The notes under the pieces were generated by a model that made no database searches, had not been told where the DNA came from, and saw only the letters and a program-made list of their open reading frames with translations. Made by a program: the position numbers and the translations under genes. Shown here piece by piece: positions 106 to 40,244 of a DNA stretch of 40,244 nucleotides. Position 1 is the first letter of the stretch; each line of letters starts with the position of its first letter. The stretch is from a virus, in the IMG/VR virus record IMGVR_UViG_3300046747_000214, positions 1 through 40,244 of that record; one strand, given 5' to 3'.

Positions 106-135
106 GAGACTTCTCCCTCGACTCTCTCGCCCTCG
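10..135. repeat. Terminal direct repeat, left copy (circular overlap)
   Basis: These 126 bases are identical to positions 40119-40244 at the other end of the window. Such exact end overlap is what an assembler leaves on a circular or terminally redundant genome, so the molecule is circular or circularly permuted with a unit of about 40,118 bp. The nine bases before it (1-9) do not match the corresponding bases before the right copy, which may reflect strain variation or assembly noise. Overlap is seen directly; circularity is inferred. Confidence 0.9.
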
Positions 136-5383: not shown

Positions 5384-6333
5384 AGACGGTACTCTGCACA
5401 GGTACTTTAGGCTTTATATTTTCGAACTTCATCCGGCACGCCGTCACGCTACCAGGCTACCGCTGGGTAGGCGTCGACAAGGCGGCCCGTCAGTACAACC
5501 TGGCCAACTGGTTCGAGCACCCTGACTATCGCTTCTATCTCGCCGACATCGCCGACGCCCACACCATCGGCACCATCTTCGAACGCGAGCGCCCGGACAT
5601 CGTCATCGGCGGCGCGGCGGAGTCGTTCGTGGATGACAGCATTACCGACATCATGCCTTTTCTGCGCACCAACGTGGTGGGCACTCAGACGCTGGTGAAC
5701 GCGTGCCTGAAGTACGGCGCACGCTACGTCCACGTCTCGACGGACGAGGTTTACGGCCAGCAGCTAGCTAAGGACGCGATTGGCTGGACTGAGAACGTCC
5801 CCATGGCCCCACGTAACCCATACGCAGCTAGCAAGGCGTGCGCAGAGCATGTAGTGACGGCTGCCCACGAGACGCACGGCCTTCAGTATCAAATCACTCG
5901 TAGCTGCAACGTATACGGGCCCCGTCAGAAGAAGGAAAACCTTATTCCGCGTATCATCTATTCGCTCTTGCACAATGAACCAGTCCCCATTCATGGCAAC
6001 GGGCTCAATTTCCGACAGTACATTCATGTGGACGACGCCATTACCGCGCTGATGTGTGTCATTGAGCGTGGGGCTATAAATACCACGTACAACGTTGGCG
6101 GTGAGGACATCCTGACGAACCTGGAGATGGTGGCTCGAATTTACGAGCACATTGGGATGCAGTCGCCAAACATCTCGCACATCGAGGACAGGAAGGCCCA
6201 CGACTTTGGCTACAAGGTTTCGAGCAATCGCCTCAGGGAGCTGGGCTGGGCGCCGGAAGTGGAATTCTATAGCGGCATTCACTCCACCATCGCCCATTAC
6301 CGAAACAGGGGGAGCTTTGCCTACGCCGCGTAG
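5380..6333 (+). CDS. NAD-dependent NDP-sugar 4,6-dehydratase (RmlB-like, extended SDR)
   Basis: A 317-residue extended short-chain dehydrogenase. The nucleotide-binding glycine motif is degenerate (TGTLGFIFSNF near residues 7-17 instead of GGAGFIGS). Catalytic residues are present: STDEVYG at 120-126, whose Asp-Glu pair is the dehydration signature of RmlB-type enzymes, and YAASK at 148-152 giving Tyr and Lys. The substrate loop reads ESFVDDSI where family members have ESHVDRSI. Product would be an NDP-4-keto-6-deoxyhexose, the substrate for the cupin and C-methyltransferase just upstream. Start ATG 5380 overlaps the previous stop. The 5,900-6,130 stretch has lower GC than flanking genes. Confidence 0.87.
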   Translation: MKTVLCTGTLGFIFSNFIRHAVTLPGYRWVGVDKAARQYNLANWFEHPDYRFYLADIADAHTIGTIFERERPDIVIGGAAESFVDDSITDIMPFLRTNVVGTQTLVNACLKYGARYVHVSTDEVYGQQLAKDAIGWTENVPMAPRNPYAASKACAEHVVTAAHETHGLQYQITRSCNVYGPRQKKENLIPRIIYSLLHNEPVPIHGNGLNFRQYIHVDDAITALMCVIERGAINTTYNVGGEDILTNLEMVARIYEHIGMQSPNISHIEDRKAHDFGYKVSSNRLRELGWAPEVEFYSGIHSTIAHYRNRGSFAYAA

Positions 6334-6916
6334 AATCAACGTCATCGGTCGCGGCCCGTGGGGCCAGAACATCGTACGTACGCTGAAGGAGCTCGGTGCT
6401 GAGGTGCCCATCATCGCCAACCGAGAGACTGGCTGGCGAGCGGCGTTCGAGGGTAACCCTGACGGCATCTGCGTGGCAGCGCACCCGAGCGTCAATCTGC
6501 CGGTGGTCCTGGAATGCGAGAAGCGCGGGATACCTGTGTTCATCGAGAAGCCTGCGGCGCTGAACCTGGCCGACGTAGAGCGGATGGCCAAGGTCTGCAC
6601 GCCCATATTCGTGAACTACACGCACCTATTTCGGCGCCCTGACGGCGACCCGTTCGGCGTTGGGTGCGCGGAGGTCATGGCCGGCCTCATGTCGGGGCGG
6701 CGCCACGACTTTGGGGCGCTGTACGACTGGGCGCCGCACGCGCTGGCATTGGCCATCGAGGCAGAGTGTGCCGACATCCGCAACGCGCACCATGAGCCAC
6801 TCAAGAACGCGCTGGCCGCGTTCCTTGCTGGCCGTTTCGGCTCGCCAGACTTTGGCCTGACGGTGCGCATCCACCGAATCATTGACGCCGCGGAGAAGCT
6901 GAATGCCAGTCGTTGA
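6317..6916 (+). CDS. Short Gfo/Idh/MocA-family oxidoreductase
   Basis: A 199-residue NAD(P)-dependent oxidoreductase. INVIGRGPWGQNIVRTLKEL (residues 7-26) is the dinucleotide-binding start, GICVAAHPSVNLPVV the next conserved strand, and VFIEKPAALN holds the EKP motif typical of the family. Usual members have about 330 residues; this one keeps the Rossmann domain and only a short remnant of the C-terminal sheet domain (DWAPHALAL). I chose TTG 6317 because it follows an AGGGGGAG ribosome binding site at close spacing and places the Rossmann strand near the N terminus; it overlaps the dehydratase by 17 bases. In this context it could reduce a keto-sugar, but whether so short a version is active is uncertain. 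Confidence 0.78.
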   Translation: MPTPRRINVIGRGPWGQNIVRTLKELGAEVPIIANRETGWRAAFEGNPDGICVAAHPSVNLPVVLECEKRGIPVFIEKPAALNLADVERMAKVCTPIFVNYTHLFRRPDGDPFGVGCAEVMAGLMSGRRHDFGALYDWAPHALALAIEAECADIRNAHHEPLKNALAAFLAGRFGSPDFGLTVRIHRIIDAAEKLNASR

Positions 6917-7139: not shown

Positions 7140-7624
7140 TGGTCCCAACCGGTATCGTTGCCACGCCAACCGGACCGCCGCGGGTCTATCTCGACTTCGT
7201 GGCCCGAGACATGGGTGACGCCGACAGAGACTTCATCTGCAACAGCTATCTCCTCAGCTTCAGGCGCGAGCGGCCCATGTGTTGGGTGCCGCATACCATC
7301 TACTACGGGCCCCAGGGCAAGGTGCTAACGTACCTACTGGACAAGGCCCGCGTGCTTGTCGCCTGCTTCCCCGAGGACCCGGGGGAGATACTTGGTTACA
7401 TCATCTATGACTACATGGGCGATGTGTTGGTCGTCCACTACGCCTATGCCAAGCTTGACGGGCGCGGCATCAAGCATCGGCTCTTGGAGACTGTCGCGGG
7501 GGGCCTGAGCATGGCCGTCGTCACCCACTCGTTCCCGGGTATGAAGTCGCTGCTAAACAGGAACTCACGTACAGCGGTGCATTATGACCCGTACCTGATA
7601 CAACGATTGATGGCGAATGGCTAA
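7139..7624 (+). CDS. GNAT-like acyltransferase-fold protein
   Basis: A 161-residue protein with an N-terminal helix-strand layout and a central run ILGYIIYDYMGDVLVVHYAY followed by AKLDGRGIKHRLLE, which looks like the beta4-beta5 and acetyl-CoA pyrophosphate loop region of GNAT N-acetyltransferases (a degenerate Q/RxxGxG/A motif as LDGRGIKHRL). Proteins of this kind occur just upstream of the terminase genes in several podoviruses; their role is not settled. The GTG start overlaps the previous TAG by one base. Fold call is tentative; it could instead be an unrelated phage-specific protein. Confidence 0.55.
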   Translation: MVPTGIVATPTGPPRVYLDFVARDMGDADRDFICNSYLLSFRRERPMCWVPHTIYYGPQGKVLTYLLDKARVLVACFPEDPGEILGYIIYDYMGDVLVVHYAYAKLDGRGIKHRLLETVAGGLSMAVVTHSFPGMKSLLNRNSRTAVHYDPYLIQRLMANG

Positions 7625-7898
7625 GTCGCGTATTGAGGTCATTGACGAAATCGTGGCAATGATTCACGAGGACCTGCTGCGCATCAAGGTCCAGAACGTG
7701 GGCCGCCAGCTGAACAAGGACACGGCGCACGCGGTCGCTGAGTACGGGCGAACCATGTCAGCCCTTGACCGCAACATGAGCGCCAAGGAGAAGGGCGGCG
7801 CGGATGAGGCCAGGACGCTGACCGATGACGAGCTAGAGGCCGAAATCATGAAGGCGGCTAAGGCCGTTGAGGGACGCCGTGGCAGTCAGCCCAAGTAG
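7617..7898 (+). CDS. Possible small terminase subunit
   Basis: A 93-residue, helical, charged protein directly upstream of the large terminase and overlapping it. The position, size and helical character (IEVIDEIVAMIHEDLLRIKV, then a C-terminal basic tail) fit a small terminase subunit, which would recognise phage DNA for packaging. No convincing helix-turn-helix is visible, so the assignment rests mostly on gene order. It overlaps the upstream gene by 8 bases. Confidence 0.45.
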   Translation: MAKSRIEVIDEIVAMIHEDLLRIKVQNVGRQLNKDTAHAVAEYGRTMSALDRNMSAKEKGGADEARTLTDDELEAEIMKAAKAVEGRRGSQPK

Positions 7899-9297
7899 CG
7901 CCCTGGCCGAGTGGAGCCGGCGCAAGGCGATGCCGGACCTCTTGAACGCCTGCTTCGACAAGCAGATTGCGTTCATCAACGATCCGTCCCCCCTAAAAGC
8001 GGCGTTTGTTGCGCGGCGTTCGGGGAAGACTTGGGCCATTGCCGTGGACCTCATCAAGACCGCCCACGAGAACCCGGCCACAAAATGCCTGTATTACGGC
8101 CTTACCCGTGACAGCGCGTGGAACGTCACGTTCCTGCACATGCTTGACCCCATCTGCCGTCAATTCGGTATCAGGGTCCAGGTCAATCGCACTTTACAAA
8201 CGCTGGAGTTTGAGAACCGCAGCATCATCAAGCTGACCGGGGACGACGCCAGCGACGGCCAAATCGACAAGGCGCTAGGCGGCAAGTACAAGAAGGTCGT
8301 CTTCGATGAGTGCCAGGCCATCAAGCACGACCTTGAGGGCTGGGTAAAGAACAAGCTCGGCCCCGCCATGGTCGACCAAGACGGCGTCATCGTGCTTGCC
8401 GGTACCGCCGGCGAGCACATGGGCGAGCGCTTTTGGTACAAGGTCACCCGCGAGAAGGACCGGGAGCCGGGGTGGTCGGTTCACTCCTGGACGCCGTTCG
8501 ACAATCCGCACATGGCGGAGCTGGTTCGAAAGTACCTCGTCAAGCGCCGGACAGAGAACCCGAACCTAGACGAGGACCCCGGCTACCAGCAGGAGTGGCT
8601 TTGCAAGTGGGTTGTCGAGCGGGAGGCGCGTATCTACCGCTATGACCCGATGCGCAACGCGCTGGACCACCACGACTTCAGTAACAAGCATTGGCGGTAC
8701 CTCATCGGCGTCGACTTTGGCTACGAGGACGACACCGCCATCGTGGTAGGTGCCTACCACCCCCACGACGGACGCTGCTACCTGCTGGAGTCGTTCAAGA
8801 AGAAGCACATGCTCATGGACGAGCTAGCCGCCGAGATTGACGCCAGGCGCCGCCAGTACAGCCCCGAACACATCGTGGTCGACGGGCAGAACAAGCAATT
8901 CGTCATGAGCATGGGCGCCAGGTTCGGTATCCCCATGCGCTTCGCTCAGAAGCTGGGGAAGGCGGAGCACGTTGCCGCCATGAACAACGACTTTCGCACG
9001 TCGAAACTCATGGTGGTTCGTGGCGCCAACGCCGCATTAGTGGAGGAGTGGGATGCGCTGACATGGGACGAGGGCGCCAGGCTTAGGGGCGTATTCAAAG
9101 AGAACGCCAGCAAGGACAACCACCTTGCGGACGCGGCGCTTTACCTCCATCATGCGTCTAAGCATTACTGGACGACGCCAGCCCCCACCGAGGACCCGCA
9201 TCCCATGCGCACCCAGGCAGAGCGAGAGCTGCGAAACCAGATGTCCGAGCGCGGGGACGCCGCTGCGTTCTACAATCAACTTGAAGGGGTCCAGTGA
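7879..9297 (+). CDS. Terminase large subunit (packaging ATPase and nuclease)
   Basis: A 472-residue DNA packaging motor. The ATPase domain has a deviant Walker A, VARRSGKTWA near residues 44-53, and a Walker B with catalytic Glu, KKVVFDECQ near 139-147. The C-terminal RNase H-fold nuclease has IGVDFGYEDDTAIVV near 275-289 (first catalytic Asp), VVDGQ near 333-337, and DNHLADAALYLHHA near 413-426 carrying the last acidic residue. Length and motif spacing are normal for the family. I chose GTG 7879, preceded by GAGGGA at good spacing, over TTG 7867. It starts inside the previous gene and ends in GTGA with the next. Confidence 0.95.
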   Translation: MAVSPSSALAEWSRRKAMPDLLNACFDKQIAFINDPSPLKAAFVARRSGKTWAIAVDLIKTAHENPATKCLYYGLTRDSAWNVTFLHMLDPICRQFGIRVQVNRTLQTLEFENRSIIKLTGDDASDGQIDKALGGKYKKVVFDECQAIKHDLEGWVKNKLGPAMVDQDGVIVLAGTAGEHMGERFWYKVTREKDREPGWSVHSWTPFDNPHMAELVRKYLVKRRTENPNLDEDPGYQQEWLCKWVVEREARIYRYDPMRNALDHHDFSNKHWRYLIGVDFGYEDDTAIVVGAYHPHDGRCYLLESFKKKHMLMDELAAEIDARRRQYSPEHIVVDGQNKQFVMSMGARFGIPMRFAQKLGKAEHVAAMNNDFRTSKLMVVRGANAALVEEWDALTWDEGARLRGVFKENASKDNHLADAALYLHHASKHYWTTPAPTEDPHPMRTQAERELRNQMSERGDAAAFYNQLEGVQ

Positions 9298-13041: not shown

Positions 13042-14346
13042 ATGGCCTTTGGTAATGACGCAGTCGTCAATTCCATTGCCCTCAACGAAGGGCAAGCGGA
13101 CGCAATCCTCAAAGAAATCTACTCCGACGACGGGGTAACCGACCAGTTCTTCCGGGAAAACCCCTTCTTCGCGCTGATGCCGAAGAAAGAGGACGTTACC
13201 GGTCGATACTATGAGCAGCCGGTGTGGGCGAGCGCTGGACAAGCGCAAAGCCGTACGTTCGGCGCGTCGACTTCAGGCCCTGGCCTGCAGACCGGCGCCG
13301 GGCTCTCCGGTGAAGCGCCGTACACGTATCTCGTCCCCAAGGTCGAGAACATGGCGGTCGCCAACGTGTCCTCCAAGCTCATTGCGGAGACCAGCTCCAC
13401 TAAGGGCGCGTTCGTCGACATGGTTCGCGCCATTGCCGACAACCAGATGCAACAGCTCATCAACGACACAAGCATCGGCTTGTTTCGTGGGGCCGACATC
13501 AACCGCGGTCAGGTTGGCGGCAGCGTGGCAGGTACCACGTTGACCTTCAGCTCCGCGGCGGACTGCGTCAACGCTGAACTCGGGATGTTCCTGGAATTCG
13601 CGTCCACCAACACCGGCACCACCGTTCGCGCGCTCTCCGCGAATAACACCGACTGCCATATCGTTGCCATCGACTACGTCGCGGGTACCGCGGTGGTCGC
13701 CTGGACCGGCTCCGGCACGCAGACGCTTACCGCGAACAACGTTGCGGTTGGCGACTTCATCTACCGCGCGGGTGACAAGTCGCTCGGTTTCAACGGGTTC
13801 CTTGACTGGATTCCGTACGGTGGCGTGTCGTCCACCGACAGCTTCCTAGGCGTCAACCGCTCCAAGCAGTCTGTCCGCCTCGCTGGCTCCTACCTGGACG
13901 GAACCCAGGGCAACTTGGAAGAGGTCCTGGAAAAGGCCATCAACCGCGTTGCCCTCTTCGGCGGCAAGCTCACCCACTTCATCATGCCCTACGGGCAGTT
14001 TACCGCCTTGGCGAACGCCCAGGGCGCGAAGGTGCAGCTCGTCAACGTCAAGAGTGCGGAGGCCGACATCGGCTTCGAAGGGATTGAAATCACCGGCGCT
14101 AACGGCCGAGTGACCTGCCTCCCAGACCGCTATTGCCCGTCGAACACCATCGCGGGTGTCGACATCAACACGTGGAAGCTCATCAGCGTGGGTAAGGCGG
14201 TCCGTACCTGGCAGTACGACGGCAAGGTGTGGCTGCGTTCGTACAACGCGAACGGGATGGAAATCCGCTTCTACTCGCTCGCTAACCTCGTGTGTCGCGA
14301 GCCGCGCTCGAACATCAACGTTCGCGTGAACCCAATCACCATCTAA
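13042..14346 (+). CDS. Major capsid protein
   Basis: A 434-residue protein downstream of the scaffold, with a strong ribosome binding site (GGAGAA). It has the N-terminal segment FFRENPFFALMPKKEDVTG, a long spine-helix region SSTKGAFVDMVRAIADNQMQ, a central beta-rich insertion near residues 150-235, and a C terminus with WLRSYNANGMEIRFYSLANLV. This follows the order of HK97-fold major capsid proteins. It begins after an untranslated leader of 49 bases, one of the few real gaps in the late region, which fits the need for high expression. Confidence 0.9.
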   Translation: MAFGNDAVVNSIALNEGQADAILKEIYSDDGVTDQFFRENPFFALMPKKEDVTGRYYEQPVWASAGQAQSRTFGASTSGPGLQTGAGLSGEAPYTYLVPKVENMAVANVSSKLIAETSSTKGAFVDMVRAIADNQMQQLINDTSIGLFRGADINRGQVGGSVAGTTLTFSSAADCVNAELGMFLEFASTNTGTTVRALSANNTDCHIVAIDYVAGTAVVAWTGSGTQTLTANNVAVGDFIYRAGDKSLGFNGFLDWIPYGGVSSTDSFLGVNRSKQSVRLAGSYLDGTQGNLEEVLEKAINRVALFGGKLTHFIMPYGQFTALANAQGAKVQLVNVKSAEADIGFEGIEITGANGRVTCLPDRYCPSNTIAGVDINTWKLISVGKAVRTWQYDGKVWLRSYNANGMEIRFYSLANLVCREPRSNINVRVNPITI

Positions 14347-22003: not shown

Positions 22004-22788
22004 TGGGCATTTCCCTCTCACAGGCTGTCTTTGGCGGGCTGGCGATTGCCGGAACGACGGCTGCCGCAATCGCAACCGCCGGCGCCCTCGCGCCTGCAGC
22101 TGCGGCGGCAGACGCCGCGGTCGTGGGCGGCGCGGAGGGGGTTGCCGCAGGTACCGGTGCGCTGGCCGGTAGCGCAGCGGCAGCTGCGCCGGTTGCCGCG
22201 GCTGCGCCGTTGGCTGAGGCCGCCGCGCCGCTCGCAGGGGCGGCGGCTGAACCCATGGTGGACGCAGGGGTGGCCGCTGGCGCTGAAGGCGCATCGTCCG
22301 CCGTCGCTGCCCCGATTGCCGCCCCCGCCGCTACGGAGACGGCGGGCGCCACCGCGGGCACGGGTGCCACGGCCAATGCCTCTGTCAACGCGGCGGCCGG
22401 TGCTGCCGAGTCTGGCATCGATACGGGAAAGGCAATCGCTAGCGGGGTAAAGACTGGGCAGGGGGTCTACGACACGGTCAAGAAGACGCAGGCCGGGTTT
22501 CAGAACCAGCCAGCGCCGAGCATGGGCGGCCCCGCCCCCGCGGGCCCCTCGGGGCCACAGCTTCAAACGCCCAACCTCACGGGGGGTGGAACGTACGGCG
22601 CCATATTTGGCCAGCCACCCGGAGGCGCACAGGGTCCACAGCCGATGTCGCTGCCGCCGCTGACTATTCAGCCCATTACGCAGCCGCCTCCGCAGATGTC
22701 TGACCGTACGAAAAAGACGGAAGTGAAGTCCGCGGAGCGCTCCATCAAGGAATTCCTAACCCAGGTGTACAGCAATGCCGCTCTATAA
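22003..22788 (+). CDS. Ala-rich membrane-active internal virion protein with S74-like tail motif
   Basis: A 261-residue protein with more than a third alanine in the first 150 residues, long hydrophobic Ala/Gly/Val stretches (VFGGLAIAGTTAAAIATAGA at 9-28), then a Pro/Gly-rich part and a C-terminal SDRTKKTEVKSAERSIKEFL. The alanine-rich amphipathic N-terminal half suggests membrane insertion during DNA ejection. The C-terminal motif parallels that of the preceding and following proteins. It overlaps the next gene by 14 bases. Functional call is by composition and context. Confidence 0.6.
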   Translation: MGISLSQAVFGGLAIAGTTAAAIATAGALAPAAAAADAAVVGGAEGVAAGTGALAGSAAAAAPVAAAAPLAEAAAPLAGAAAEPMVDAGVAAGAEGASSAVAAPIAAPAATETAGATAGTGATANASVNAAAGAAESGIDTGKAIASGVKTGQGVYDTVKKTQAGFQNQPAPSMGGPAPAGPSGPQLQTPNLTGGGTYGAIFGQPPGGAQGPQPMSLPPLTIQPITQPPPQMSDRTKKTEVKSAERSIKEFLTQVYSNAAL

Positions 22789-24007
22789 CTCGCTGACGTC
22801 CATGTCGCAGCTGGGCCTGGCGCCGAAGCCGTACAGTACTGCGGTGCCGGGGGTGGCCCCGCCGCCGCCCACCGGCGCGACGATGAGCGTCCCCCAGCCG
22901 ATGCCCGTGCCGCCTCCCACTGGCGCCACCATGACCGCGCCCAAGCCTCCGCCGCCGCCCACCGGCGCGACAATGACCGTACCCACGCAGCCACGAACCA
23001 GCACCACGATGGAGAGGACCGCAACGCCTCCGCCAACTGGCGCAGCGATGACCGCGCCCCCCCAGCCGCAGTACGCGCCGCCGCCCATGGGCGGAAACAT
23101 GGCCATGCAGCCGGCCCCCAGGCCTTCCCAGATGGGGCTCACCCCTCAACGTGGCGCCATGGGCGGTATGCACGATTGGCGACCGCCCCCGCAGCAGCCG
23201 ATGATGGCGCCGCCGCAGATGCCCCAGAAGTCCGTGGAAGAGCAGGCGCTCAACGGCGGGGGCGTCGACAATAAGCAGCAGATATCCAACTTCATGACCG
23301 CGCTGCACAACGCCAACTCCGGCGGAAATAACAGCTTCATGCAGGGGCAGGACGGCCAGCCGCCCCCGCAAGCCGGACCGCTGGTGAGCAACGTGGGCCC
23401 TCAGGCTACGCAGCAGTTCAACGCAGGCCCTGCCCCGCGCCCCATGGTCGGCGCCGAGGCGCAGAAGATTGGCATGTTCAATAGCGGCATGTTCGGCCAG
23501 CCCCAACAAGTCCAGGACGAGCAACAGAAAATCGGCATGTTGAACAGCGGCATGCTCGGGCCCGCCCGCGACGTCTCCGCCGAGCAACAGAAAATCGGCA
23601 TGCTGAACAGTGGGGCGCTTGGCAAGCCTGTCGTGGATGGCACCTACGGCGGCGCAGGTGCGGCGGGTATGCAAGCGATGATGAGCGACGAGACGCAGAA
23701 GGAGAAGGTCAGCGACGCCACGGGCAAGCTCACCAACTTCATGAGCGCCATCGGTGCCCACGAGTACAAGTACAAGTCCCCCGAGCTTGACGGCCAAGGC
23801 ACGTACACGACCCCCATGGCCCAGGAATTACAGAAGACGGAGCTTGGCAAACAGGCCGTTATCCAAACCCCCCGCGGGTTGATGGTCGACTATGGCCGTC
23901 TGGGCGGCGTCAACCTGGCCGCAGTGAGCGTCGTGCACCGCGAGCAACAGAGGCTGGCGGCGCAGGTAGAGCGGCTCCGGGGTGAGATGAAGCGGAGGAA
24001 GGGCTAA
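22775..24007 (+). CDS. Pro-rich repeat protein with full S74-like C-terminal domain
   Basis: A 410-residue protein. Residues 30-95 contain four copies of PPPTGATM(T/S)xP-type units. Residues about 230-292 contain three 21-residue repeats built on QKIGMLNSGMLG. From MSDETQKEKVSDATGKLTNF (near 303) to the end is an S74-like domain with HEYKYKSPEL, MAQELQKTELGKQAVI and GLMVDYGRLGGVNLAAVSV, the pattern of chaperone-type C-terminal domains on phage tail and ejection proteins. It ends in a charged coiled coil. Whether it self-cleaves is unknown. The start lies inside the previous gene. Confidence 0.65.
   Translation: MPLYNSLTSMSQLGLAPKPYSTAVPGVAPPPPTGATMSVPQPMPVPPPTGATMTAPKPPPPPTGATMTVPTQPRTSTTMERTATPPPTGAAMTAPPQPQYAPPPMGGNMAMQPAPRPSQMGLTPQRGAMGGMHDWRPPPQQPMMAPPQMPQKSVEEQALNGGGVDNKQQISNFMTALHNANSGGNNSFMQGQDGQPPPQAGPLVSNVGPQATQQFNAGPAPRPMVGAEAQKIGMFNSGMFGQPQQVQDEQQKIGMLNSGMLGPARDVSAEQQKIGMLNSGALGKPVVDGTYGGAGAAGMQAMMSDETQKEKVSDATGKLTNFMSAIGAHEYKYKSPELDGQGTYTTPMAQELQKTELGKQAVIQTPRGLMVDYGRLGGVNLAAVSVVHREQQRLAAQVERLRGEMKRRKG
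22862..23060 (+). repeat. Four-copy PPPTGATM coding repeat
   Basis: DNA repeats of the form CCGCC(G/T)CCCAC(C/T)GGCGC encode four imperfect PPPTGATM units at irregular spacing (residues 30-40, 46-56, 60-70 and 85-95 of the host protein). Such proline-rich units form extended linkers and can gain or lose copies by recombination. Confidence 0.8.
23462..23650 (+). repeat. Three tandem 63-bp coding repeats
   Basis: Copies begin at 23462, 23525 and 23588, exactly 63 bases apart, each encoding a 21-residue unit that opens QKIGM(F/L)NSG(M/A)(F/L)G and closes with a variable linker. The exact in-frame period points to duplication within the gene. Confidence 0.85.
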
Positions 24008-25740
24008 TGGCCGCGATTGACCCTAACGCCGCCTGGGCCCAGGTCGGCAACCAAGCCAACCCGTATATGCAGGGCTTCACCCCGCCGGCCAATGGGCTGG
24101 ACCAGCTGCAGTCGGCGGGCGTCAATGTCGGTCCGGTCGTGGGGCAGACGTCCCCCGAGTATGTCAAGCCGGTGCTTGGCAATGCGGGCGGCGGCAAGGT
24201 CAAGGACTACGACCCGGCCACCATGGGCCCGGTGCTTGGGGTCTCACAGCCGCCGCAGCCAGCCGCCCCCACGAAGCCAGGCGAGCCCCCACCCGCCAAC
24301 GACAACGCAGGCAAGGCAGCGCCGGAGCGTGTCCTTCGTCCTATCGATAAGCGCCACGCAACCGCCGTTGGTAAGCCTGGCATTCCAGGATCCGAAAAAC
24401 TAGCCCTGGCTGCCGGGGACGAGACCCGAGGCGACCGCGCGGAAACGATAGGGAAACGCGCCGACATCCTTGGCCAGGTCCAAGAAGTCATGGCGAACGG
24501 CGAAGCGGAGAACCGCAATCGCCTCACCGGCATGGAGTCGGAGCTAGAGACCCGCCAGACCAACCGAAAGCTTTATGAGAGCACCGAGCGTGACGCCGCA
24601 GAAAAGAGGCACGCCGAGATAGAGAAGGAGGGCGCCGACGCTCGGGCCGCGAAGGTCGACCCAGACCAATGGTTCAAGGAGCGCGGTACGGCCGGACGAA
24701 TCATGAGCGCCATCGTGATGGGCGCGGGCGCGTTCGGCGCAAACATGCCGCATTCAGGTGGTCAGAACGCCGCCATGCAAATCATCAACGACTCTATCGC
24801 TTCGGACATCAAAGGGCAGCACGCCAACATTGAACAGAAGTGGAAGGGCATCTCCCACCTCGTCGAGTCGGACCAGCAGTCCTACGCCCGCGGCCAATTC
24901 AAGATGAAAGAGATGCGCGAGGAAGAGGTACAGGGCACGACGCATGCGATGGCGATGATTGACCGGGTCTCCGCCATGACGACAGATGAAGCGTCGCAGG
25001 CAAAACTCGGCCAGATGCGAATGGACCTGCAGGACAAGCTGACCGACCTCAAAGAACAGCACTACAACCAGCGTGTCGGGGTCATGCAGCGGGACGAGGG
25101 ACGCCAGGCTGCAGCGAACGCGAGCGCGGCGGCAGAGGCTCGCGCGCGCGAAGGCAGGATCCGAGACCATACCTACAAGATGTCGGCCAGCCCAGACGCC
25201 GAGCTGTCTGCGTACGCCGAGAAGAATGGCATTTCGATTCCCGAGGCGGCGTACCGGCAAGCCAGGGCCGTCGAGGACCGAGACTTCGGCGACGCTGACC
25301 TGGTGCGGAACGTTCACCCGGACAAGGGTGGCGCAGGCAGCAAGCTGTCTGAGGACGAAAAGGGCGTACGGGCCAGCAACGAGTTCAATAAGCAGCTGGA
25401 CGACGTCGAGAAGAGCGACGTAATCATGAAGTCGGGGCTAACGGAGGCCGCGCTTTCGCACCTGGGCGGGAGGATCGCTCCAGGCTCAAGCCAAATGAAG
25501 ACTGAATTGGACTCCGTCAATACCCGGCTGATGCAGGGACTCGGCAAGGTCGCCAAAGATGCAGACGGCAAACCGAACAAAGAGATGCTGGAGCGGTATG
25601 AGGAGCGCTTCACCATCAAACTGTCGGATACGCCAGAGCAGAAGCAAGCCAAGATCCGCGGCGTGCGCGACGTAGTGAACGGAACGTCTAACCAGCAGGT
25701 TGGTGGCAACGCGGCTCTTTCCACGGCAAAGAAGAAATGA
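24007..25740 (+). CDS. Internal virion protein, coiled-coil (577 aa)
   Basis: A 577-residue charged, helical protein. The first 120 residues are Pro/Gly-rich; residues about 140-220 form a coiled coil (for example NRKLYESTERDAAEKRHAEI). A short hydrophobic Gly/Ala segment, IMSAIVMGAGAFGANMPHSG near 236-255, is followed by more coiled coil. Together with its neighbours it forms a set of large proteins between tail genes and small appendage genes, the place occupied by internal core/ejection proteins in podoviruses. Start shares one base with the previous stop. Confidence 0.65.
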   Translation: MAAIDPNAAWAQVGNQANPYMQGFTPPANGLDQLQSAGVNVGPVVGQTSPEYVKPVLGNAGGGKVKDYDPATMGPVLGVSQPPQPAAPTKPGEPPPANDNAGKAAPERVLRPIDKRHATAVGKPGIPGSEKLALAAGDETRGDRAETIGKRADILGQVQEVMANGEAENRNRLTGMESELETRQTNRKLYESTERDAAEKRHAEIEKEGADARAAKVDPDQWFKERGTAGRIMSAIVMGAGAFGANMPHSGGQNAAMQIINDSIASDIKGQHANIEQKWKGISHLVESDQQSYARGQFKMKEMREEEVQGTTHAMAMIDRVSAMTTDEASQAKLGQMRMDLQDKLTDLKEQHYNQRVGVMQRDEGRQAAANASAAAEARAREGRIRDHTYKMSASPDAELSAYAEKNGISIPEAAYRQARAVEDRDFGDADLVRNVHPDKGGAGSKLSEDEKGVRASNEFNKQLDDVEKSDVIMKSGLTEAALSHLGGRIAPGSSQMKTELDSVNTRLMQGLGKVAKDADGKPNKEMLERYEERFTIKLSDTPEQKQAKIRGVRDVVNGTSNQQVGGNAALSTAKKK

Positions 25741-28061
25741 GCGACCCCAAGCCGCCGCCCACAGCACCTGCGGCCCCCGCCGGGCCGGCCAAGCCACAGA
25801 CCCTGGTTGCCCCTGACGGCAAGCAGTACGCGGTGCAGCCTCAGGGCATCAAGCTGGCGCTTGAACATGGCTGGAAGACGCCGGAGACCATCGCCACAGA
25901 CCAGGCGAAGGACTTCCAAACCGATGTGATGAACCGTCACGCCGAGAAGGAGCAACACCGCGTGGCCGGCGGCGTGGGCCGCTTCGTCAACGAAGCCACG
26001 TTCGGCGTAGGCGACGTGATTGACTCCTACAGCCAGCCCGCGCGCGCGCGGGCCGTTGAAAGCCAGGCCGAGGAGCAATTCGCCAAAGACCATCCGGGCG
26101 AGGTGTTCGGCGAAAAGGCCGCCGGGTTTCTGGCCTCGATGGCCATTCCAGGTGTTGGCTTTGCCGGCAAAATGGCAGAGAAGGCCGCCGCTGAAATCGC
26201 CGCAAAGTCCCTGGCCGGCAAGATTGGGCGCGCCGCAACCAAGACCGCTGTGGAAGGCGCCATGTACGCCTCTCCGCAAGCAGCCATCCAGGCGGCGTAC
26301 GGCGACACCAACCGCGCGGCTGAAACCATGCTGTGGGGCGTGGGTCTGGGCGGCGTTCTGGGCGGTGCGGGTAGCGCTGCCGGCGCAGGCGTCAAGGCGG
26401 CCGCCGGTACCGCCCGCGAGCTGGTGAGCCACAAGCTTACGGGCCTAGCCGGCAAAAGCTTGGGCCTAACCGAGCAGCGCATGAAGCAGCTCGGTCCGGA
26501 GAAGATGGAGCAAATCATCAACACCGCGGACCGCGAAGGTCTCCTGGGCCTGGACCCATCGAAGCACCCTGAGGCCATCGGGGCCATGCAGGCGGACGCC
26601 GCGTCCAAGCTTGACGAGCACACCGACAAGCTCGAAGGCTTGCTTGGTAACAAGAAGCACGCGGGCATCGGGCCCAAGCCCCACGACGTCGCGGACGCGG
26701 TGCAGGCAGAGGTTGCGGACAAGTTCCCGGAGCTACAGACCGAGCTACACGTCGACAAGCACAACTACTGGAAGAAGCTGGACGACACCATCCGCGGCGC
26801 GGGGGAAGAGCCCACGTTCAAGGGCCTGCAGAAGGTCCGCGACGCCATTGCCATGGACAAGCGGTCGCCCGACAGCGTCAAGGGCAGGATTGCCGAGCTG
26901 ACCGACTCCATCCTCGGCAAGCACATGGACGACGCGGCGCAGAAGCTCTTTGAGAGCGGCGGTGCCGGTGAGAACTTCGCCGACTACCTGGCCCAAAAGG
27001 AGCGGCACCACGTCGCCTCTGAGCTCCTGAAGGGCCCAGGCTTCACCGACAAGCTCGCGGAAGCCGTTCATGGCAAGGGCGAAGAAGCCATGGGACTGGG
27101 CGACATGGGCCGGCTAGCGCTTGGTGCGGTCACGGGCCACGGCGTTCTTGGTGTGGCCCACGTAGCCGGCCACCACGCCGTGAAAGCGTTCATGTCGAAC
27201 AAGTGGGGCCTACTGGGGAAGTCGGTCTCCTTTCTACGTAAGGCAGCCGAGGACCCGGCCACCGCGCCGCTCATCGGTGGACTGATGGCCAAAGAGGGCG
27301 CTGGCGCATTGACCGCTCACCTAGACGCTATCCCGCACATCCTGTCCGGCTCCAAGCTGGCGGCGCGCGCGGACGCGGATATCGTCCAAGAAATCATCGG
27401 GCCCACAGCCGGACTCACGAAACACCAACAGTACCAAAAGCTCACGGACACCATTACCAGCGCGGCCACCGACGCAAGCAGCACGGCGGACCGGGTGGGC
27501 GATGTGTCTAGCCTGTTCTCGGGCACCAGTACCGAGCTTGCTGCCGCTGTGGCCGGGAAGAAACTGGCCGCTATTTCGTATTTGCAAACCCAGATACCAA
27601 AGAACCCGAACGCGCCCAGGGCCTTTCAGCGGTCCGACGAGTGGAAGCCGTCCCCGCAGCAGCAAAGGGACTTCCTGTCCAAGGTGGAGATTATCTCCAA
27701 CCCCATGACCGTATGGCAGCACTACGCGGAAGGTCGGCTTACCAAGGTTGACCGGGATACGCTGAAGGCGGGTTTCCCATCCATCTATCAGGACATGGTC
27801 GACAAGATAGCGGCTACGGCGTTCGACCCCAAGGCGCCAGGGTTGAGCCGGGAGCAGCGCCTGCAGCTCTCTACGTTCACCGGCATGCCGATGGACGGCA
27901 GCCTAAAGAACCTGACCGCCATTCAGGAGGCCTTGCAGTCTGGAGGCTCGCAGCAACAGCCTCAGAGCCAAGGGCCTAAGCCGTCGTCGCGGCCTGACCT
28001 GAAGTCGCCCAGCCTGCAGACGGATACGCAGCGTATTACGCATGGAGCAAGCTCCAACTAG
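25737..28061 (+). CDS. Large internal virion (DNA ejection) protein, 774 aa
   Basis: A 774-residue protein starting in an ATGA overlap. The N terminus is Pro-rich; residues about 120-220 contain Gly/Ala hydrophobic segments (AAGFLASMAIPGVGFAGKMA and LWGVGLGGVLGGAGSAAGAG) likely to insert in membranes. The rest is helical and charged with a further hydrophobic patch near 465-485. This matches ejection proteins that help DNA cross the cell envelope. No lytic transglycosylase motif is visible. The final 40 residues are Gln/Pro/Ser-rich. Confidence 0.65.
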   Translation: MSDPKPPPTAPAAPAGPAKPQTLVAPDGKQYAVQPQGIKLALEHGWKTPETIATDQAKDFQTDVMNRHAEKEQHRVAGGVGRFVNEATFGVGDVIDSYSQPARARAVESQAEEQFAKDHPGEVFGEKAAGFLASMAIPGVGFAGKMAEKAAAEIAAKSLAGKIGRAATKTAVEGAMYASPQAAIQAAYGDTNRAAETMLWGVGLGGVLGGAGSAAGAGVKAAAGTARELVSHKLTGLAGKSLGLTEQRMKQLGPEKMEQIINTADREGLLGLDPSKHPEAIGAMQADAASKLDEHTDKLEGLLGNKKHAGIGPKPHDVADAVQAEVADKFPELQTELHVDKHNYWKKLDDTIRGAGEEPTFKGLQKVRDAIAMDKRSPDSVKGRIAELTDSILGKHMDDAAQKLFESGGAGENFADYLAQKERHHVASELLKGPGFTDKLAEAVHGKGEEAMGLGDMGRLALGAVTGHGVLGVAHVAGHHAVKAFMSNKWGLLGKSVSFLRKAAEDPATAPLIGGLMAKEGAGALTAHLDAIPHILSGSKLAARADADIVQEIIGPTAGLTKHQQYQKLTDTITSAATDASSTADRVGDVSSLFSGTSTELAAAVAGKKLAAISYLQTQIPKNPNAPRAFQRSDEWKPSPQQQRDFLSKVEIISNPMTVWQHYAEGRLTKVDRDTLKAGFPSIYQDMVDKIAATAFDPKAPGLSREQRLQLSTFTGMPMDGSLKNLTAIQEALQSGGSQQQPQSQGPKPSSRPDLKSPSLQTDTQRITHGASSN

Positions 28062-33816: not shown

Positions 33817-34245
33817 TTATTTGGTCCGCTCGCGGGTGGTTGTTTTGGGGGCCGGCGTGGGCTCTGACCCTGCCGTCGCGAGCTTGGCCAGCGCCTTCTC
33901 TACTTGAGAGAGCCGCTGCTCTGTTTCGCCGGGGCGCAACGGGGGCAGGCCCAAAATCTCGTCAAGGCTGCGCCCCGTCATGTTTCGCAGGGAAATCAGC
34001 GTGTTTGTACCGGCATCTCGGTTCTTATTGAGGATGTCGCTCAGGTGTGGCGGGCTGATGTCGAGCGCATCCGCTGCGGCGCGTTGGTTGCCGTTGAAGC
34101 GCTCGCGCACCACCTCGCGAATCGCGTCGCGGATGCGGTCAGCCGTCTTGGGGTCCAGTTTTTTCCTGCTCACGGCTTCGATCGTCACCGAGGAGCCGTT
34201 CGCAGATGCCAACTTTTCCGCTTGCGCTACATCACTCATTCTCAT
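33817..34245 (-). CDS. XRE-family helix-turn-helix repressor
   Basis: A 142-residue regulator, probably the lysogeny repressor. The HTH domain is seen near residues 50-100: NGNQRAAADALDISPPHLSD is helix 2-turn-helix 3, followed by AGTNTLISLRNMTGRSLDEI. The C-terminal part is a short coiled-coil segment (ETEQRLSQVEKALAKLA) with a basic tail; there is no peptidase (LexA/CI) domain, so induction must work by another route, possibly the antirepressor transcribed divergently. The first Met (34245) or the third codon Met may be used. Operator-like palindromes lie at its 3' end, inside its 5' coding region and upstream. Confidence 0.75.
   Translation of the reverse strand: MRMSDVAQAEKLASANGSSVTIEAVSRKKLDPKTADRIRDAIREVVRERFNGNQRAAADALDISPPHLSDILNKNRDAGTNTLISLRNMTGRSLDEILGLPPLRPGETEQRLSQVEKALAKLATAGSEPTPAPKTTTRERTK
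34198..34213. promoter_or_regulatory. Second copy of the operator-like motif, inside the repressor gene
   Basis: GTTCGCA-GA-TGCCAAC differs from the palindrome at 33798 by one base, and the identity continues into AACTTTT. It overlaps codons near the start of the repressor, where binding would block its own transcription. It lies exactly 400 bases from the first copy. Confidence 0.5.
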
Positions 34246-35124: not shown

Positions 35125-35403
35125 ATGAAGCAGCCGTCATCAGCAGTTATCCAACTAGGGGCCCTTGGTGCGCTCGGTTGGTGCCGTCGTCTTTGCGAAC
35201 GGGCCTCCGTCACGCTGGCGGACATACTCGGGCGGTCCCGCGTTTCGCGCATCGTTCGCGTGCGTCACCGCGTCTGGGCGGTCCTTCGCTGGACGCTGGA
35301 GCTTTCCTATCCAGAGATAGGCCGCATCTGGGGGGTGGACCATTCAACGGTCATGGCTGGCGTGCGGCAGCATGAACGCCGCCTGGCCGCAGAGGTCGCG
35401 TGA
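35125..35403 (+). CDS. Stand-alone DnaA domain IV-like DNA-binding protein
   Basis: A 92-residue protein whose residues 61-83 read SYPEIGRIWG-VDHSTVMAGVRQ, closely like the DnaA-box binding helix-turn-helix of bacterial DnaA (SLPEIG...DHTTVLHA). The preceding helix (VRHRVWAVLRWTLEL) also fits domain IV. The AAA+ ATPase domain is absent. It could bind DnaA-box-like sites on the phage or host origin, as initiator accessory or as a competitor of host DnaA. It begins directly after the previous stop and is followed by GTGA overlap. Confidence 0.75.
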   Translation: MKQPSSAVIQLGALGALGWCRRLCERASVTLADILGRSRVSRIVRVRHRVWAVLRWTLELSYPEIGRIWGVDHSTVMAGVRQHERRLAAEVA

Positions 35404-35774
35404 GTGACCTAGAGCGCACCATGACGGCGGCGGACGTGGCGCAGGTGCTGCAGTGCTCACGCTCGCACGCCTACGAGCTGCTCTCGCAGATACCCGCGAC
35501 CAAGAAGCTGGGCGGCATGCTGCGTATCCGTGTTCGTGACTTCTGGGTTTGGTTTGAGAAAGGGCAATCTCCGTGCGGCTCTATCAACGAAGGAAGGCCA
35601 GCGGCGCAGTCGTCTGGTGGGCATCGTGGACGGAGGGCGGCAGGACCATCCGCCGCTCGACGCGATGCACGACGCGAGCAGCCGCCGAGCTCGTCACCGC
35701 CCGATGGGAGCGCGAACGAATCGACCCCGTATACGCGGCCTCGAACGAAGCCACGCTCAACAGCGAGTGGGTGA
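35400..35774 (+). CDS. Excisionase-like small helix-turn-helix protein
   Basis: A 124-residue frame. Only the first 55 or so residues look conserved: MTAADVAQVLQCSRSHAYEL is a MerR/HTH_17-type DNA-binding start, and KKLGGMLRIRVRDFWVWFEK the wing and helix typical of excisionase-like proteins. The remainder (Pro/Arg/Ser-rich) overlaps the integrase start by 202 bases in another frame and may be a by-product of that overlap. Context just upstream of the integrase supports an excisionase. GTG start overlaps the DnaA-like gene stop. Confidence 0.65.
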   Translation: MSDLERTMTAADVAQVLQCSRSHAYELLSQIPATKKLGGMLRIRVRDFWVWFEKGQSPCGSINEGRPAAQSSGGHRGRRAAGPSAARRDARREQPPSSSPPDGSANESTPYTRPRTKPRSTASG

Positions 35775-36625
35775 CCTTCATCGCAGAGTGTCGGGCGGAC
35801 CGCCTGGCCGAGGGCACCCTGCTCATGTACCGGCAGAAGGCCGGCAATCTGATGCGCCTACTTGGTGCGGAGACCAGGCTGGCCGCACTGGATGCCGCGA
35901 TGGTCGGCGGCTACGTGAACGCCCGCCGCGAAGAAGGCGCCGTTGACTCCACCATCTACAAAGAATGGATCACGCTCCGGGGTATCCTGTCGAGCGCGCG
36001 CCATCGTCGCAGGTTCGCTCTTGACCCTGCCGTTCTGAAACCCCCTCGGCTTGTGCCGAACTACGTCCCCCGAGAGCGCTGGCTGTCACGGGAGGAGGCA
36101 GCGAAGCTCCTGGGCAAGCTCTCCCCTTCCCGGCGTGAGGTCGTGGCGTTCGTCATCAGCACCGGGGCCAGGCGCAAGGAGTGGAACCGAGCCATTGCCG
36201 GCGACATCGACCGCAAGGCTTGGACGGTTCACCTGCATGGCACCAAGACCGACGCCAGCGACAGGACCATCCCGGTTCCGTCGCACTTCCGGCAGTACCT
36301 CACCGCCATCGAGCCGCCGTTTCGCTCATGGGGCAACGCGCGTCGTGACCTGGCTGTCGCATGCAAGGCGCTCGGCATGAAGCCGGTCACCTGGAACGAC
36401 CTTCGGCGAACGTTCGCCAGCCAACTCGTGGAGGACGGAGTGGCTCCCCACATCGTCGCCAAGCTGCTCGGCCACAAGAGCACCGCGATGGTCGACCGCG
36501 TCTACAACCGGGCCCGAATGCTCCAGCTTGGAGAGCAGATGGAGGCCCAAATCCGTGACCCACGGGTGAACCAACGGAAGCGTACTCGCAAGGGCTCTGA
36601 CGGACGCAAAGGACATCAAAAGTGA
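35573..36625 (+). CDS. int: Tyrosine recombinase integrase
   Basis: A 350-residue phage integrase. The N terminus (SGAVVWWASWTEGGRTIRRS) is the arm-binding-type domain; the core-binding SAM-like domain is near residues 65-165. Catalytic motifs: Arg in STGARRKEW (near 197-205), Lys in GTKTDASDRTIPV, NDLRRTFASQLV where family members usually have HDLRHT, the His in LLGHKST, and the tyrosine in VDRVYNR near residue 311. The Asn-for-His and second Arg-for-His in box II are unusual but tolerated in some members. It lies upstream of a tRNA-derived attP. GTG 35573 start. Confidence 0.92.
   Translation: MRLYQRRKASGAVVWWASWTEGGRTIRRSTRCTTRAAAELVTARWERERIDPVYAASNEATLNSEWVTFIAECRADRLAEGTLLMYRQKAGNLMRLLGAETRLAALDAAMVGGYVNARREEGAVDSTIYKEWITLRGILSSARHRRRFALDPAVLKPPRLVPNYVPRERWLSREEAAKLLGKLSPSRREVVAFVISTGARRKEWNRAIAGDIDRKAWTVHLHGTKTDASDRTIPVPSHFRQYLTAIEPPFRSWGNARRDLAVACKALGMKPVTWNDLRRTFASQLVEDGVAPHIVAKLLGHKSTAMVDRVYNRARMLQLGEQMEAQIRDPRVNQRKRTRKGSDGRKGHQK
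36553..36573. repeat. Left arm-type inverted repeat near attP
   Basis: The 21-bp element CCGTGA(C)CCACGGGTGAACCA lies within the last codons of the integrase gene. It differs from the element at 36762-36782 by one base, and contains an internal CCGTG...CACGG inverted repeat plus a TGACCCA/TGAACCA tandem. The two copies flank the tRNA-like core, the layout of integrase arm-binding sites. Confidence 0.65.
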
Positions 36626-37881: not shown

Positions 37882-38030
37882 AATGTCACGAGCGTCTCAA
37901 CAGCGTCTCACCCCCGCGCGCGTAACACCACCTGTGCCAAGCGGCACACTTTGGCTTGACATGGCACAGCGGACTCGTGTACGGCTGCACTGTACCCAGG
38001 GGAATGACACCAGCCCTGGAGAGGTGACGC
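37710..38030. promoter_or_regulatory. Repeat-rich 321-bp gap, candidate origin or late-operon control region
   Basis: No convincing rightward gene. It holds five GGCACA(G/C) units (37813, 37822, 37943, 37963 forward; 37932-37938 inverted). It also holds the inverted repeat TGTGCC-AAGC-GGCACA at 37933-37948, a perfect 13-bp palindrome TGACAT-A-ATGTCA at 37876-37888, two AGCGTCTCA repeats 11 bp apart (37891 and 37902), and TTGACA hexamers at 37875 and 37956. Iterated short motifs beside a replication gene suggest an origin; the -35-like hexamers and position before the long sugar-packaging block suggest a promoter. Both remain inference. Confidence 0.45.
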
Positions 38031-40214
38031 CTGAAAGCTCCCGTCTCTGTCTGCATCATCTGCGACGATGATCCGCACCTGGCCCAAACCGTGGCCAGCG
38101 TCGAGCCGTTCGTTGAGCAGGTCGTCACCCTAAGCCCCAAGAGCGTCCCCGGCGTCTTTGACGCTGAGGGGCGCATCCAGGACTTCTCAGCAGCGCGCAA
38201 CGCCAGCTTCGAGCTGGCCACGCAGCCCTGGGTCATGTGGCTGGACAGTGACGACCTGTTTGACGGTGGGGAGAAGCTCCATGAGCTGTGCAAGGCGCCG
38301 CAGGGCACCTGCTACCTGTTCCCGTACGAGTACGCCTACGACCATCTTGGGCGATGTGTCGTGCGGCAGTACCGCGAGCGCCTGTTCTCACCGCGCGGGG
38401 CTATGGCCTGGAAGTACCCGGTTCATGAGGTTCTCGTGCCTGTGGGCCAACCACTCAACATGGTGCTCTCTGAGGCGTGCGGAGTCCGCCACCGTCGCCA
38501 GTTCAATGCCAAGCCCCAGGAGCCGCAGCGTAACCTGCGCATCCTCAAAAGCTGGATGGCGCAGAACCCGGACGACGTCCGGAACCAATTCTACATAGGC
38601 CTGGAGTACGCCAATGTTGGGGAGCTCGATGAAGCTGTAACCTGGCTAACCAAGTACGTCGGCAACACGGGCTGGCCCGACGAGAAGGCGCAGGCGCTGT
38701 TCCGTCTGGTGCAGATCCACGAGCAGCGCAGGCAATACGCCAAGGCGCTGGACTGGGCCTTCGAGGCGCTGAAGGTCTGCGACTGGTTTGAGAGCTGCTA
38801 CGCCATCTGCCGGCAGTTCTACTACCTGAAGAACTGGGAGCGCTGCGTTCACTACGCACGCATGGCGCTGAACGCGCCGCCCACCAAGACGGTGCTCTTC
38901 ACCGACGAGTCCGCGCGGCATGAGCTCCACGTCTATCTGAACGTGGCGCTGAACCAGCTGGGCAGGACCCAGGAGGCATACGAAAGCACGCTGGAGGGGC
39001 TGAAGGGGAACCCGGAGCATCCGCTGTTGCGGCATAACCGGGTGGAGTACGAGAAAGCTTTAGGGAAGGGCGACCCCGCCGACTCCTCGTCACAGGCGGA
39101 AGCCGCCACCTGCCTCCACTCGCCGGCCAGTGGCCCTAAAGAGGCCGGCAGCTACAACCCCAAGTGCCTGGACATCGTGTTCGTCACGGCGTCGTGGGAG
39201 CGATGGGACCCCGAGAGCATCAAGGCTACCGGCATCGGCGGCTCAGAGACGATGCTGGCCAACATGGCCAAGCATCTTGCTGCGCTGGGGCACAAGGTCA
39301 CGGTCTACGCAGACCCGACGAAGGAAGGAACGTACGATGGCGCGGAGTGGAAAAACAAAGAGCGATTCCAGGGCGTCAGATGCGACGTGCTCGTCGTGTC
39401 TCGACAAGCACCGTACGTGGACGAGGCTGGCCACGCGTCCTTGCGCCTGCTGTGGTGCCATGACGTTACGGCGATTGGAGCCAGTCCCTCCCGCCTGCTC
39501 CGCTATGACCGCCTTGTTGCACTATCTCAATGGCACAAAGACTACCTCGTCCGCGCCCACGACATCAGCCCAGACCAGGTCATCGTCACGCGCAACGGCA
39601 TCGACCTCGACAGGTTCAAAGCGTCGCCGCCGCGCAACCCGCACAAGATAGTCAACAGCTCATCGCCTGACCGCTCGTGGCCAGTCCTGCTGGAATGCTT
39701 CAAACGCATTAGGCAGCAGGTGCCGCAGGCCGAGCTTCACCTGTTCTACGGCTTCGACAATTGGAAGAAGGTCGCGGCGAATGACCCGTTGGCCATGGAC
39801 TCGATTCGGCTCTTGGAGGAGCAGGTCAAGGCGCCTGGCGTGCACTACCACGGGCGGGTTAGCCAGGAACGGCTTACGCAGGAGTTCCTGACGGCCAAGG
39901 TATGGGGATATTCAACATTCTTCACTGAAACAAGTTGCATAACAGCCATGGAGGCTCAAGCTGCAGGACTGCATATCGTCACGAGCAGTATCGCAGCGCT
40001 GCCAGAGACGCTTGCGGGGTATCCGAAGGCCACCCTGATTGACGGTGAGTGGACGTCTCCGGAGTACCAGCGAAAGTTCGTCGCTGCCGTGGTGGGGGCC
40101 CTCAATGCGCCAGTGCAGTTTGGTCAGCGCGTCGAAGATAAGGTGGCCTGGGCCCGAGAGATTCTGGCCATGTACGCGACAGAGGTGCACGACGAAGATT
40201 GGCGGCTGCCGTGA
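38031..40214 (+). CDS. Bifunctional glycosyltransferase: GT2 - TPR - GT4 fusion, CTG start
   Basis: A 727-residue protein. Residues 1-100 are a GT-A family 2 domain (VSVCIICDDDPHLAQTVASV, then FSAARNASFELATQPWVMWL) with the metal-binding DxD in LDSDD near 71-75. Residues about 180-330 are TPR-like helices (FYIGLEYANVGELDEAVTWL). From about 380, LDIVFVTASWERWDPESIKA, GIGGSETMLANMAKHLAALG and SSSPDRSWPVLLECFKRI form a GT4 GT-B domain. An in-frame TGA at 38025 excludes an upstream start, and the first conserved strand begins before the first ATG/GTG. CTG 38031 lies 6 bases after GGAGAGG, so CTG initiation is the best fit. It continues through the circular join to base 105. Confidence 0.85.
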   Translation: MKAPVSVCIICDDDPHLAQTVASVEPFVEQVVTLSPKSVPGVFDAEGRIQDFSAARNASFELATQPWVMWLDSDDLFDGGEKLHELCKAPQGTCYLFPYEYAYDHLGRCVVRQYRERLFSPRGAMAWKYPVHEVLVPVGQPLNMVLSEACGVRHRRQFNAKPQEPQRNLRILKSWMAQNPDDVRNQFYIGLEYANVGELDEAVTWLTKYVGNTGWPDEKAQALFRLVQIHEQRRQYAKALDWAFEALKVCDWFESCYAICRQFYYLKNWERCVHYARMALNAPPTKTVLFTDESARHELHVYLNVALNQLGRTQEAYESTLEGLKGNPEHPLLRHNRVEYEKALGKGDPADSSSQAEAATCLHSPASGPKEAGSYNPKCLDIVFVTASWERWDPESIKATGIGGSETMLANMAKHLAALGHKVTVYADPTKEGTYDGAEWKNKERFQGVRCDVLVVSRQAPYVDEAGHASLRLLWCHDVTAIGASPSRLLRYDRLVALSQWHKDYLVRAHDISPDQVIVTRNGIDLDRFKASPPRNPHKIVNSSSPDRSWPVLLECFKRIRQQVPQAELHLFYGFDNWKKVAANDPLAMDSIRLLEEQVKAPGVHYHGRVSQERLTQEFLTAKVWGYSTFFTETSCITAMEAQAAGLHIVTSSIAALPETLAGYPKATLIDGEWTSPEYQRKFVAAVVGALNAPVQFGQRVEDKVAWAREILAMYATEVHDEDWRLP

Positions 40215-40244
40215 GAGACTTCTCCCTCGACTCTCTCGCCCTCG
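40119..40244. repeat. Terminal direct repeat, right copy (circular overlap)
   Basis: Identical to positions 10-135. See the left copy. The bases just before (40110-40118) differ from bases 1-9. Confidence 0.9.

Follow-up and report, generated by a model that had tools for sequence, protein, structure and literature searches.

The window, i.e. the whole 40,244-nucleotide stretch of viral DNA analysed here, contains an open frame whose translation combines two glycosyltransferases of different folds with a set of helical repeats, beside further transferases and a sugar pathway. Few phages have so far been shown to glycosylate their virions with enzymes of their own. The locus raises the question of what such a double transferase might do for a phage and which acceptor it might modify. 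We address this by way of the architecture of the protein and its cassette, the gene neighborhoods of its relatives, and the conservation of its active sites.

Architecture of the fusion protein and its sugar cassette

The protein and its parts are as follows:
38031 to 40214, plus strand: GT2-TPR-GT4 fusion, 727 aa, probable CTG start (open frame, Pfam, structure model, 71 full-length family members)
38020 to 38024, plus strand: Shine-Dalgarno-like AGAGG, 6 bases 5' of the CTG at 38031 (sequence)
38031 to 38525, plus strand: GT-A family 2 domain, residues 1-165, with DxDD at 72-75 and HE at 132-133, a shortened nucleotide-binding segment and no DTGSxD (Pfam, family alignment, model)
38526 to 39080, plus strand: TPR helical repeats, residues 166-350 (model helices, weak TPR_14/TPR_20 matches, NCBIfam MamA-like TPR match)
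39081 to 39158, plus strand: disordered linker, residues 351-376 (pLDDT <50)
39159 to 40169, plus strand: GT-B family 4 domain, residues 377-713, with a GIGGSE loop, the SSPDR motif and E-x7-E (E633, E641) (Pfam, motifs, model)

The original prediction had joined a family 2 domain, helical repeats and a family 4 domain in one protein, and this is borne out by the frame, which runs without a stop from 38031 to 40214 as a single ORF, and by the order of its Pfam matches. These comprise GT2 (residues 51-86), a weak TPR match (168-251), Glyco_transf_4 (402-438; 48.8 bits) and Glycos_transf_1/Glyco_trans_1_4 (552-671), of which Glyco_trans_1_4 scores 27.7 against a cut-off of 27 and Glycos_transf_1, at 24.2 against 26.4, stays under its cut-off. 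PHROGs and NCBIfam agree with Pfam on the order GT2, TPR, GT4. The earliest ATG, GTG or TTG in the frame is the GTG at 38091, and a start there would cost the GT2 fold its first beta strand. The upstream CTG at 38031 follows its Shine-Dalgarno-like stretch at good spacing, coincides with the start of several members of the window's clade and lies a few residues ahead of a V/I-S-x-C strand. Structure prediction of the fusion, which had been proposed as a check, was run with AlphaFold2 on 58 input sequences from the window and the loci of its relatives. The GT-A, TPR and GT-B parts are all well folded in the model (mean pLDDT 88.7), in which the helices on the TPR side span residues 167-361; given the pTM of 0.58, the mutual position of the two halves is poorly determined.

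The ends of the contig repeat each other, positions 10-135 being identical to 40119-40244 (126 bases), and on account of this overlap the fusion reads on into the methyltransferase at 102, followed by the GT4 proteins at 972 and 2311. The fusion stop overlaps the GTG start of the next gene as GTGA across the join. The two additional GT4-like enzymes that had been placed across it (972-2075 and 2311-3444) are confirmed by Pfam, and the join itself is real at the contig level. Positions 1-9 differ from the bases preceding the end overlap, which may cause automatic detection to miss the circular end repeat. The genes beyond the join are:
102 to 884, plus strand: SAM methyltransferase, GTG start (Methyltransf_11, E 1.9e-8; orthologue in L176)
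881 to 967, plus strand: small hydrophobic ORF, 28 aa, GTG start, VNDQDGWILMLVFALVVTAMVAAKGCGW, between the methyltransferase and GT972 (sequence, hydropathy)
972 to 2075, plus strand: GT4 glycosyltransferase, 367 aa, E-x7-E intact (Glycos_transf_1, E 3.5e-18; orthologues in L176, L244, L248, L249 and L261)
2311 to 3444, plus strand: GT4-like glycosyltransferase, 377 aa, homologue of the fusion GT4 domain (Pfam, pairwise comparison, clade neighborhood)
3924 to 4253, plus strand: cupin, probable sugar isomerase or epimerase (Cupin_2, E 4.4e-7; orthologue in L176)
4247 to 5383, plus strand: NDP-sugar C-methyltransferase with both Methyltransf_13 and Methyltransf_14 (Pfam)
5380 to 6333, plus strand: dTDP-glucose 4,6-dehydratase-like enzyme (TIGR01181, E 5.5e-89, 298 bits against a curated cut-off of 365)
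6332 to 6916, plus strand: Gfo/Idh/MocA-type sugar oxidoreductase, start uncertain (PF01408, E 1.9e-6; orthologue in L176)
7867 to 9297, plus strand: large terminase, 3' of the cassette (PHROG 2, E 6e-31)
13042 to 14346, plus strand: major head protein, candidate acceptor (PHROG 14242, E 2.3e-5)

The dehydratase is close to RmlB, at a score under the equivalog cut-off. In such pathways enzymes of this kind yield C-methylated 6-deoxysugars from dTDP-glucose. The same block is present in L176, a 139-kb phage contig, in the order fusion, methyltransferase, GT972, GT2311, cupin, C-methyltransferase, dehydratase and oxidoreductase, with one additional two-domain methyltransferase, and a 2311-type GT4 gene lies beside the fusion in all 20 assessable loci of the clade. 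This conservation supports the earlier suggestion that several transferases work together with a sugar pathway. The proposed paralogy of the fusion GT4 domain and the 2311 enzyme holds at the level of homology (28% identity over 135 aa, E 2e-9); the motif common to the two is SSPDR-x4-LL, the spacing of five residues given previously being wrong. As the S-x-x-x-R core is invariant throughout the family (69/69 fusion members), the motif alone is no sign of a recent duplication, and we discarded it as proof of one.

Distribution of the family and its genomic neighborhoods

Scans of viral contigs with alignments recovered 80 ORFs with all domains, of which 71, including that of the window, are non-redundant and full-length; the window's clade is supported by an SH-aLRT of 100. 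Among named phage records, a 42.6-kb Manatee Spring phage, present as three records of equal length, proved by tblastn to encode a full-length relative (29% identity over 98%), and our searches for isolated phages with the full-length fusion returned only these Manatee Spring metagenome phages. Across 84,980 genomes of bacteria and archaea, scanned with GT2-domain peptide patterns, which makes the survey non-exhaustive, the best 80 relatives include one full-length fusion, on a contig that also bears a phage capsid gene; the rest have GT2 and TPR but lack the GT4 half. In the open-access papers searched we came across no account of this fusion architecture.

Several relatives vary in layout. 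In L005 (MW202497; 3472-7791) the GT4 domain is split between its lobes, with GT2-TPR-GT4N ending at 5175 and the C-lobe encoded by a separate ORF at 7201-7791; a phage GroEL and two small ORFs lie in between, and the pieces possibly form a split GT-B enzyme that reassembles. Inteins (Pfam Intein_splicing) lie within the GT4 C-lobe of the L202 and L228 fusions (L202:7911-11285, L203, L228:3302-6427) and in a B12-binding radical SAM protein adjoining the L006 fusion (L006:6284-8857), accompanied by LAGLIDADG in L202 and L006. A methyltransferase is inserted between TPR and GT4 in the fusions of L169, L185, L207 and L236 (GT2-TPR-MTase-GT4) and is C-terminal in that of L168, and L231 encodes a 1478-aa chain with extra GT2 and GT4 domains and a methyltransferase.

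Neighborhoods were scored with capsid, portal and terminase seeds, mostly PHROG-annotated. Of the 71 fusion loci, 52 have a major capsid gene upstream of the fusion and on its strand, in 49 cases no more than 2.1 kb away, related loci not being independent of one another. The common gene order is TerL-portal-MCP-fusion, and in several other loci the fusion is directly behind the portal or terminase. Collagen-like genes appeared in 49/80 loci of the first viral scan. In a dedicated scan of the window's clade (21 non-redundant loci, including the window, scorable for such a gene) a collagen-like Gly-X-Thr gene is upstream on the same strand in 16, in some cases just 4 to 91 bases away; the loci without one are the window, L238, L244, L250 and L261, and of these L244, a 42-kb contig, has a terminase after the cassette, as in the window. 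This linkage (16/21 versus 4/65; Fisher test, p 8e-10) is to be read descriptively only, because the test ignores shared ancestry and because collagen-like genes also occur near the related, unfused transferases of the large phages L013, L019 and L190. In the collagen-like runs of the clade Thr occupies 50% of the Y positions and Lys 0.07%; the richness in Thr is weak as specific evidence, since unlinked phage collagens in other loci look alike. In bacteria, collagen-like Gly-X-Y genes were found in 40 of the best 80 loci with standalone GT2-TPR proteins, nearly all adjoining the transferase. In about half of these 80 loci (L087-L165; Clostridia and other bacteria) GT2-TPR genes adjoin Gly-X-Thr collagen-like genes, which suggests that pairs of the SgtA/BclA3 type (see below) are common.

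The neighbors of the relatives are usually genes for parts of the virion, namely the capsid and collagen-like tail fibers, and on this ground the fusion probably coats virion proteins with sugars, which favors the virion acceptor named in the original prediction. Gene neighborhood alone does not prove an acceptor. The window has no collagen-like protein (its longest Gly-X-Y run is 5), so that a collagen-like fiber is ruled out as its own acceptor, and its capsid gene is ~13 kb downstream of the fusion; neither neighbor rule hence applies to it directly. The candidate acceptors in this phage are the capsid, a tail protein or another protein; its tail-region proteins are encoded at 22775-28061.

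The main alternative is that the cassette alters the host surface (O-antigen or capsule) in lysogeny or infection and blocks superinfection in the manner of the Gtr serotype-conversion islands. The phage is indeed temperate by gene content, with a tyrosine integrase at 35573-36625 and a HTH repressor-like ORF at 33817-34245; O-antigen loci often hold deoxysugar pathways and GT4 enzymes, and a review of jumbo phages ascribes phage GT clusters to modification of capsular polysaccharide (PMC7824862). However, the cassette transferases contain no membrane segment (the highest 19-residue hydropathy among the three GT proteins is 1.26), no Pfam match to a GtrA flippase or a membrane GtrB-type transferase was found in the cassette, where the only hydrophobic ORF is the 28-aa one at 881-967, and the TPR-linked GT2 enzymes of known function (SgtA, SunS) act on polypeptides. 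Moreover, the relatives sit in head or fiber blocks, not in lysogeny or moron regions. We accordingly regard modification of the host surface as unlikely, and the lipopolysaccharide that had been named as the alternative acceptor has less support than a virion protein. Just upstream of the integrase, 35125-35403 encodes a 92-aa protein with the C-terminal HTH of DnaA (Bac_DnaA_C, E 2.8e-12).

Active-site motifs and the short GT2 segment

The W-x-D-x-D-D motif of the GT2 domain is kept in 71/71 non-redundant full-length members, and its HE motif is nearly invariant (H in 71/71, E in 70/71). In the GT4 domain the first Glu and the Cys of an E-x-x-C motif are present in all 67 members with residues at those positions; at the second Glu position of E-x7-E, 27 members, among them the window, have Glu and 38 have Lys.

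The GT2 domain of the window is unusual in its nucleotide-binding segment. This has been shortened in frame at 38112-38186 (VEQVVTLSPKSVPGVFDAEGRIQDF), with ~17 residues fewer than in L006. Its 20 residues make it the second shortest in the family, after L167 with 17, all others having 28-53. The Asp of DTGSxD is also absent, as it is in most of the family, 18/71 fusion members retaining it. With so short a segment and no DTGSxD, donor binding by this GT2 domain is uncertain. It might accordingly be proposed that the domain is catalytically dead, that only the TPR and GT4 parts work, and that the short loop is decay after loss of an original collagen-like acceptor; the missing collagen-like gene and the long branch of the window (0.83 versus 0.37 for its sister L176) would fit such a history, as would the loop itself and the loss of DTGSxD. 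Against it, the DxDD, HE and A-R motifs are all intact in the window as in nearly all members, the 53/71 members that lack the Asp still keep DxDD, and the frame is intact with GC3 high from end to end. A dead GT2 domain was thus dropped as a firm claim, and we consider it improbable as an explanation. Glycosylation of a modified base in the phage DNA, as a shield from host nucleases, is highly improbable: hypermodification of DNA by phage-encoded transferases is known (Pyle et al. 2024, cited in PMC12619734), but no hydroxymethyl-pyrimidine or other base-modifying enzyme was detected among the scanned window proteins (several small ORFs being outside the scan or without a match), and neither a TPR arm nor linkage to capsid and collagen genes would be expected of such an enzyme.

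Proposed mechanism and comparison with known systems

We favor, and hold to be probable, a reading in which the fusion is soluble and bifunctional, a protein glycosyltransferase that both starts and extends an O-glycan of a virion protein, with the other enzymes lengthening the chain. The TPR arm would bind the virion polypeptide, and the adjacent GT2 domain would prime Ser/Thr with a first sugar. The GT4 domain, on its flexible linker, would attach the next sugar, and further ones might then be added by the 2311 and 972 enzymes. The donor, presumably a methylated or branched 6-deoxysugar, would be made from host dTDP-glucose by the methyltransferases, cupin, 4,6-dehydratase and oxidoreductase.

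More tentatively, environmental tailed phages might possess a widespread dedicated enzyme for virion glycosylation, which primes and extends an O-glycan as a single chain and is encoded mostly in the head block, in one clade with collagen-like fiber genes, the cassette being movable between unrelated phages as a unit. If this were true, sugar-coated capsids and collagen fibers would be common among phages. The linkage of the family to capsid and collagen-like fiber genes makes it possible to predict the phages whose virions are glycosylated, as well as the protein that bears the sugar, and to test this by mass spectrometry. The earlier interpretation can thus be narrowed to a family of phage double glycosyltransferases with a link to virion genes; phage capsid glycosylation is already known, and so is the glycosylation of Thr in collagen-like proteins (BclA, PMC6222408; BclA3, PMC7157674).

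Among previously named phage proteins, a close counterpart is the 'beta4glucosyltransferase' of the Manatee Spring phage ctKR88 (MW202524), a full-length GT2-TPR-GT4 protein encoded 0.5 kb behind the major capsid gene; it differs in being annotated as a single glucosyltransferase and in having no window-like deoxysugar cassette in the region read. Glycosylation of the capsid in mycobacteriophage Che8 and its relatives is comparable by description only, in that the glycans on the capsid (and tail tube) are thought to be put there by phage-encoded transferases (Freeman et al. 2023, as reported in PMC11256854 and PMC12619734). Also comparable by description only is Mimivirus L230, a viral enzyme that hydroxylates and glucosylates lysine of a collagen-like viral protein (PMC9614988); its target is lysine, yet the phage collagens found here are nearly devoid of it, and with Lys at 0.07% of Y positions we rejected glycosylation of this type for the window's clade.

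The N-terminal half of the fusion is reminiscent of SgtA from Clostridioides difficile, a 358-aa GT-A and TPR enzyme encoded beside bclA3, which transfers beta-O-GlcNAc onto Thr of the collagen-like region of BclA3 in vitro (PMC7157674). The two share the same two-part architecture (358 versus about 350 aa; the comparison is one of architecture, not of alignment), and the bclA3 neighbor resembles the collagen-like Gly-X-Thr neighbor in the window's clade. However, SgtA stands alone, whereas the fusion has a GT4 domain behind the TPR, and a collagen-like gene is missing from the window phage. The neighborhoods described above suggest that GT2-TPR enzymes are paired with Gly-X-Thr collagens, as shown by experiment for SgtA and BclA3, in phages and many other Clostridia as well.

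Sequence searches with the fusion recovered SunS (residues 50-236, E 1e-6) and GmaR, and structure searches recovered SunS/ThuS (Foldseek E 3.5e-14 for 7msn) and OGT/SPY. The S-glycosyltransferases SunS/ThuS (7msn, 7msp, 7msk) share the GT2-TPR fold, but modify small bacteriocin peptides and lack a GT4 part, and the fusion falls far short of the NCBIfam SunS equivalog (23.4 against a cut-off of 350 bits). OGT and SPINDLY, top matches of the fold search, likewise present a TPR arm before a GT-B catalytic domain and modify Ser/Thr of proteins. They differ in belonging to GT41, not GT4, and in having no leading GT-A domain; the OGT matches align solely the TPR and GT-B order, with whole-chain TM-scores of 0.2 to 0.3, and Pfam assigns the fusion GT4-type domains only, not GT41. 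Thus, the parallels with SgtA/SunS on one side and OGT/SPINDLY on the other, together with the collagen link, lead us to read the fusion as a primer (GT2), an acceptor arm (TPR) and an extender (GT4) in a single chain.
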